From the NCBI GenBank assembly GCA_022800755.1, contig JAAWQX010000001.1, positions 124,001 through 188,000 of the forward strand: a stretch of DNA of 64,000 nt. Reading direction: 5' to 3'. Under the pieces are notes generated by a model. That model did no database searches and was not told where the DNA came from. It saw nothing but the letters and a program-made list of their open reading frames with translations. Positions 62,641 to 64,000 of the stretch are shown here, one piece after another. The position numbers and the translations under genes are program-made. This DNA is from Oscillospiraceae bacterium (GTDB lineage Bacteria; Bacillota; Clostridia; Oscillospirales; Oscillospiraceae). Each line of letters begins with the position of its first letter. Positions within the stretch are counted from its first letter, which is position 1.

Positions 62641-62678
62641 AAAGGAAGCGCCCCGTAAATGCGGGGCGCTTCCTTTTT
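62641..62678. terminator. Bidirectional terminator between rpmE and spo0A
   Basis: AAAGGAAGCGCCCC-GTAAAT-GCGGGGCGCTTCCTTT. Confidence 0.85.
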
Positions 62679-63456
62679 ATTTCCCTTCCATGGCTTTGCG
62701 CTGCAAGACCAGGCGGTCAGCGATCATCGCGATAAACTCGCTGTTCGTGGGCTTCCCTTTGATGCCCGAAACCGTGTAGCCGAAGAACTTTTGCAGCACT
62801 TCCACATCGCCCCGGTCCCAAGCGACCTCAATGGCGTGGCGGATGGCCCGTTCCACACGGGACGGCGTTGTATTGAACTTCTTCGCCACCGCGGGGTACA
62901 AAACCTTTGTCACGCCGCCCAGCATTTCCATGTCGTTGGACGTGAGCACAATAGCTTCCCGCAGATATTGATAGCCCTTGATATGCGCCGGAACGCCGAT
63001 CTCGTGGATGATATCCGTGACCATCGCCTCAAGACTGGGCGCGGGGACCTCCATTACAGGAGTGCTCACCATCCGCAGACTCTTGCTGGCCCGCAGCTCC
63101 CGCATTTTCAGCAGCAGAGACGGGACATCCACAGGCTTGGGCGCAAAATAGGCAGCGCCTAAATTGCCGCAGTCCGCACAGGTCTGACTGTTCACGAAAG
63201 CGCTCATCACGATTACGTCACCGCTCAGCCCCAGCTCCGAAAATTTTCTTAAAATGCCAAGGCCATCCAGTTTGGGCTGTACCAACTCCATGAGTACGAT
63301 ATCCGGATTGAACTGCTGCATCATCGATACCGTTTCCAAACCATCTTTTGTCTCCCCGACCACGATCATGTCCTCTTCCTCGGAAATGACATCCTTCAAG
63401 ACCAGCCGGAAGTCGTCCTCCGGCTCCGCGATCAGGACACGCATTTTGGTTTCCAT
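62677..63456 (-). CDS. spo0A: Spo0A-type sporulation response regulator (noncanonical receiver)
   Basis: C-terminal Spo0A domain: [68 protein letters not shown]; receiver with KP-type switch Lys. Confidence 0.92.
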
Positions 63457-63641: not shown

Positions 63642-63648
63642 TTCGACA
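63642..63648. promoter_or_regulatory. 0A-box-like heptamer (TTCGACA / TGTCGAA) upstream of spo0A
   Basis: Exact match to the TGTCGAA core; 186 bp upstream of the spo0A start. Confidence 0.45.
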
Positions 63649-63755: not shown

Positions 63756-64000
63756 TTACGTTCCCGGGTAGTTTTTGTCTTTTGGAAGCGTCTTTTCAAT
63801 CACGTCACCAATCTGCGCCAGAATTCCCCGCACCTCCAACCCGAATTCCCGGGCGGAGATCCGCAGGATCCCAGACCGCAGCGCGGAAAGCTGAATCAGT
63901 GCGTCGGAGGTGGCGACCTTGACCCTGTAATTTCGCCCAATGGAATTGGCAAGCCGTTCAATATACAGGTCTCCGCTCTCGTTTTCCTTTGTGAATACCA
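63756..64000 (-). CDS. NYN-domain (YacP/Rae1-like) protein, C-terminal part; runs off the right edge
   Basis: Reverse translation ...ENESGDLYIERLANSIGRNYRVKVATSDALIQLSALRSGILRISAREFGLEVRGILAQIGDVIEKTLPKDKNYPGT*. Confidence 0.75.
   Translation of the reverse strand, partial: VFTKENESGDLYIERLANSIGRNYRVKVATSDALIQLSALRSGILRISAREFGLEVRGILAQIGDVIEKTLPKDKNYPGT

Follow-up and report, generated by a model that had tools for sequence, protein, structure and literature searches.

In the window, namely the whole stretch of 64,000 nucleotides of Oscillospiraceae DNA analyzed herein, the gene at 62677..63456 on the (-) strand encodes a protein of 259 amino acids, which the equivalog model TIGR02875 identified over its whole length as Spo0A with a score of 289 bits against a curated cut-off of 200. 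The protein carries, in one full-length copy, both domains required of a Spo0A: a receiver domain (residues 7-116; 63109..63438, (-) strand; PF00072, 58 bits) and an intact Spo0A_C DNA-binding domain (residues 146-249; 62710..63021, (-) strand; PF08769, 154 bits). The latter aligned without gaps to the solved Spo0A structures at about 65-70% identity, and several stretches of it were unchanged across the 50 sequences of the alignment. The source genome (2.01 Mb in 34 contigs, 96% complete) was examined by family searches and in selected stretches, in which this gene was the single full-length match. A second canonical spo0A, whose presence the initial annotation had held to speak against its reading, was accordingly not found by the family searches; these revealed only a receiver-less Spo0A_C protein of 164 amino acids (98.8 bits; G000:C27:208108-208404, L002 1501-1797), located 21 kb from spo0A and outside the window. 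Short Spo0A_C open reading frames were also found in several relatives (e.g., G004, G006, G023, G025, G042, and G052), and such proteins could rival Spo0A for 0A boxes. The neighbors of spo0A encode ribosomal protein L31 (62418-62618, (+) strand) and a YacP-like NYN protein (63756-63998, (-) strand). In Bacillus the usual neighbor of spo0A is spoIVB, which was not identified adjoining the gene in the window, and the 25 families listed by an NCBIfam scan of the other open reading frames of the window were abundant metabolic ones, none of them sporulation-specific.

The receiver was compared with that of Bacillus subtilis Spo0A, whose numbering is used hereafter for sites 10, 11, 56, 86, and 108, and the alignment was gap-free through beta1 and beta3. 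A phosphorylatable receiver needs an Asp at the end of beta3 and two acids at the end of beta1 that form the Mg site, and both features were absent from the protein: E57 (GAG, 63286..63288, (-) strand) replaces the phospho-acceptor D56, and E11-P12 (GAG and CCG, 63421..63426, (-) strand) replace the Mg-binding pair D10-D11. The translation, the family models, and the alignment were all in agreement with the Glu that the initial annotation had placed at the acceptor position, and its proposal of an altered acidic pocket was correct in that the second Asp has become Pro12, whereas the 'EDD' letters that it had assigned to the pocket lie in the loop/start of helix alpha1, outside the pocket position. 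The Ser/Thr at the end of beta4 and the Lys at the end of beta5 were both present, the former as S85 (63202..63204, (-) strand; B. subtilis T86) and the latter, as had been read from the sequence, as K107 (63136..63138, (-) strand), which aligned with B. subtilis K108. The Ser had been listed among the deviations; it is there, but Ser occupies this position in 69 of 69 canonical Clostridia and was therefore ruled out as part of the oddity.

A structural model built with AlphaFold2 from 50 related sequences predicted a regular five-strand receiver with a pLDDT of about 98, in which E57 is the final residue of beta3 (strand 53-57). Its best receiver match among solved structures was the phosphorylated Spo0A 1qmp, with a TM-score of 0.95 normalized by the target. 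A conserved Asp elsewhere at the end of beta3, which had been pointed out as an observation that would undo the assignment, was looked for in this model and was not found. The protein is thus a Spo0A that has neither the acceptor Asp nor a full Mg site, and, considering the established chemistry of receivers, phosphorylation of the Asp type at the E57 site is very unlikely. A receiver fold in which the acceptor Asp is replaced is what characterizes the aspartate-less receivers (ALRs), and such a fold was found here.

The distribution of these residues was assessed in 343 Spo0As, sampled at the levels of genus, family, order, and class and supplemented with B. subtilis; site 56 was Asp in 284, Glu in 42, Asn in nine, Ser in five, Gly in two, and Trp in one. 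A Pro at site 11 was seen together with Glu56 in each of the four genus members sampled, i.e., the present genome and three congeners. As the three congeners are represented by separate genomes, a sequencing error or an isolated mutation was ruled out. The initial annotation had suggested checking whether Glu is lineage-wide; among 112 Spo0As from Oscillospiraceae and their near relatives (hereafter the 112-sequence set), site 56 was mixed, with Asp in 85, Glu in 27, and nothing else. In the same set, site 10 was Asp in 110 and Glu in two, site 11 was Ala, Pro, Ser, Thr, Gly, and others but never Asp or Glu, and Ser/Thr86 and Lys108 were invariant; D11 was present in 69 of 69 canonical Clostridia. 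When single bases of an Asp codon are changed, only about one in four of the resulting amino-acid changes gives Glu, so that the finding that every departure at site 56 in the 112-sequence set was Glu, against about a quarter under drift, indicated that an acid is being kept there. Parsimony placed about 16 Asp/Glu changes at site 56 in the 112-sequence set and 24 in a tree of 226 sequences; 11 independent Asp/Glu pairs lay on supported branches, and the nearest pairs were about 81% identical. An intact D10-D11 pair was seen in none of the 42 Glu56 proteins and in 129 of the 284 Asp56 proteins, a count over related sequences; a test on independent pairs had no power to link sites 11 and 56, since site 11 hardly varies between the pairs. 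The idea of a differently switched Spo0A was thus upheld insofar as the acceptor and Mg site are altered and switching by Asp-phosphate is unlikely, but the alteration extends beyond a single species, Glu56 being found again in several lineages and the loss of the second pocket Asp spanning the sampled family. The present protein is a Spo0A with an aspartate-less, Mg-site-altered receiver, and its interpretation is best restated at the family level.

Several further observations were made in this comparison. Position 13, mostly Lys or Arg in canonical Clostridia, was Glu in 76 of the 112 Oscillospiraceae-type sequences, and the acid count over positions 10-15 was often unchanged in this set, the loss at 11 being often balanced by the gain at 13. 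Position 110, right after the conserved Lys-Pro, was Cys in 97 of the 112 and Phe in canonical proteins; a redox or metal role of this Cys is possible, but a shared redox switch was not supported as the mechanism here, for the present protein has Val109 at that position. The complete public genome of Clostridiales bacterium CCNA10 (AP018533.1; L127) encodes a Spo0A in which Ala occupies site 11 and Glu occupies site 56; Oscillibacter valericigenes An411 (L123) is a relative of the Asp type. Outside the order, three sequences of one family (f39) combined His at site 11 with Glu at site 56, apparently a separate case, and within the order, five families (f3, f9, f14, f23, and f26; e.g., L306, L286, L348, L340, and L350) had Asn, Ser, Gly, or Trp at site 56.

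The genome holds SpoIVA and SASP genes. Among 44 good-quality relatives, SpoIVA was found in 43 and SASP in 41, and across the order SpoIVA was present in 143 of the 155 genomes of good quality. It was kept in most sampled genomes even of the families without an acid at site 56, including two single-contig genomes (G044 with Asn56 and G201 with Trp56). Two family relatives without a good Spo0A (G011 and G031) also lacked both SpoIVA and SASP. Oscillibacter has been listed as asporogenous (Galperin 2012, PMC3533761), and therefore spore formation in the family is not to be assumed from genes alone.

At an effector identity of 0.80-0.85, the identity of the receiver was 40% in the family versus 68% in canonical Clostridia, indicating that the family receiver evolves much faster. 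The dN/dS values of the receiver for close pairs were nevertheless mostly 0.07-0.3, with one value of 0.40, and that between the present gene and its closest congener was 0.23 (0.267/1.176, with synonymous sites near saturation). The receiver is therefore under purifying selection, altered rather than dead. Around the pocket, the canonical residues N12, L55, M59, P60, A87, G89, and Q90 were replaced in many or most members of the family, and D63, G64, K108, and P109 were kept.

No match to the Spo0E phosphatase was obtained in the genome or in any of 60 relatives, while the B. subtilis control was positive. In the class, 71 of 196 genomes gave a match. Outside the order, the 69 genomes that gave a Spo0E match all had D11, and the 10 losses of this residue were confined to the 56 genomes that gave none; Spo0E was, however, also missing from many genomes that retain D11. 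The genome contained 11 HisKA matches, and three of these kinases (L357, L359, and L362) had no receiver within 1.5 kb, making them candidate orphan or direct kinases.

Spo0A recognizes the 0A box, with the consensus core TGTCRAA, and a putative core (TGTCGAA) was matched upstream of spo0A at 63642..63648 on the (-) strand. When TGTCRAA was counted within 250 bases upstream of spo0A at 102 loci, with dinucleotide shuffles as the null, putative cores were found at 68 loci versus 10.2 expected (4.5% in control windows), namely at 21 of 26 loci of the Glu type and 47 of 76 of the Asp type. The 0A-box-like TTTGTCAAA also occurred at five exact sites in the window (8603, 34940, 41869, 43889, and 58370), versus 1.3 expected by shuffling, and two of 100 shuffles reached five.

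All these observations are best accounted for, with a probability of roughly 0.6, if the present Spo0A is a working master regulator of sporulation that has left the aspartyl-phosphate switch and is controlled by its own amount or by another signal. The absent acceptor Asp and the Pro in place of one Mg ligand, together with the predicted intact fold, the intact DNA-binding domain, and the single copy, are in favor of this reading, as are the kept SpoIVA and SASP genes, the purifying selection on the receiver, and the 0A-box core upstream of spo0A. We infer that this Spo0A works in the absence of phosphate and that control has passed to its level or to a different signal. In the proposed mechanism, the carboxylate of E57 would pair with K107 and S85 and could thereby keep the phosphate-free receiver in or near a dimerization-competent state. 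Activity would then depend on the quantity of Spo0A, determined by autoregulation via 0A boxes and by upstream regulators, on a partner or ligand that acts at the fast-evolving surface of the receiver, or on both. In the family, the second pocket Asp may have been lost first, after which Asp and Glu at site 56 would have become nearly interchangeable. On the other side, the acid at site 56 in all 112 sequences could also reflect continued phosphorylation of the Asp forms, the common Glu at position 13 leaves room for a rewired Mg site, and the candidate direct kinases exist.

The phosphomimetic view of the initial annotation, extended to the clade, would have the Glu lineages locked on and their Asp relatives ordinarily phosphorylated, which we consider unlikely. 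According to PMC4395418, receivers that lack the Asp most commonly have Glu in its place, and Glu is able to mimic phospho-Asp; E56 was indeed seen only with an altered acid pair. That the Asp-to-Glu change is phosphomimetic is, however, one reading only, since the same paper, citing Green 1991, states that this change by itself fails to activate Spo0A and that changes in combination, including those of the pocket, may be needed; the natural Glu-type Spo0As do carry combined changes, at the acceptor and in the pocket. The repeated exchange of Asp and Glu, down to such closely related pairs, suggests near-equivalence of the two rather than a regulated form versus a locked one. Furthermore, the Asp relatives lack D11 as well, and a permanently active Spo0A would carry a cost unless its level were controlled.

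A rewired pocket appears improbable. Here, an acid of the beta1-alpha1 loop would replace D11 as Mg ligand, and the receiver would still be phosphorylated, most species using D56 and the Glu species a different residue or none. The Glu at position 13 and the often unchanged acid count, as well as the orphan-like kinases, are consistent with such an arrangement, whereas the present protein has no acceptor Asp and has Pro at the Mg position, and SpoIVA is kept in other families of the order whose site 56 is Asn, Ser, Gly, or Trp. Decay of the receiver by drift in a lineage losing sporulation is still less probable, since the fast divergence of the receiver and the asporogenous listing of Oscillibacter, which would fit it, are opposed by dN/dS values mostly well below 1, by the restriction of site 56 to Asp and Glu with K108 and Ser/Thr86 invariant, by the retained SpoIVA, SASP, DNA-binding domain, and putative 0A boxes, and by the joint absence of SpoIVA and SASP from the two relatives without a good Spo0A.

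The reading of a Spo0A independent of phosphorylation may tentatively be extended to the Oscillospiraceae as a whole, the Asp and Glu forms alike not being switched by aspartyl phosphorylation and the receiver serving to sense a signal or to bind a partner, or control being exerted by abundance; this wider claim is possible but rather doubtful. If true, it would be an exception to the rule that endospore formers activate Spo0A via phosphorylation of a conserved Asp, which reviews treat as the shared gate to endospore formation (PMC11210211). The spore decision of commensals, with its bearing on host-to-host transmission, would need another explanation if a major gut family sporulates without this gate. 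No report of D56E in Spo0A, or of a receiver-altered Spo0A in Oscillospirales, was found in the open-access full-text literature searched. Spo0As of the present type are natural proteins for asking what can replace the aspartyl-phosphate switch, and the repeated Asp/Glu exchange provides natural replicates.

In comparison with known systems, the protein agrees with the Spo0As of Bacillus and clostridia (TIGR02875) in its domain order, its score over the cut-off, its Lys108 equivalent and Ser/Thr, and the identity of its Spo0A_C domain, but it differs from them in the Glu for the acceptor Asp, the Pro for the second Mg Asp, and the lack of a Spo0E match in the genome. Many Clostridia already do without a phosphorelay, presumably relying on direct kinases instead (PMC11210211), and the term 'phosphorelay-independent' in the initial annotation thus understates the change, for here the acceptor chemistry itself is missing. 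In Clostridium difficile and Clostridium acetobutylicum, where orphan histidine kinases act directly on Spo0A, the situation is similar in that no phosphorelay is expected and that the present genome, too, has orphan-like kinases, but their Spo0As are described with a conserved acceptor Asp. With the ALRs, such as ChxR of Chlamydia, which has Glu at the acceptor position, RitR, and HP1043, the protein shares a receiver fold without a phosphorylatable Asp, and Glu makes up 26% of ALR replacements (PMC4395418); the passages of that paper mentioning Spo0A name none as a natural ALR. ChxR and HP1043 are described as missing part of the secondary structure of the pocket region, whereas the present receiver is predicted to be complete, and it is joined, unlike those of the ALRs, to a Spo0A_C effector in a master regulator of sporulation.
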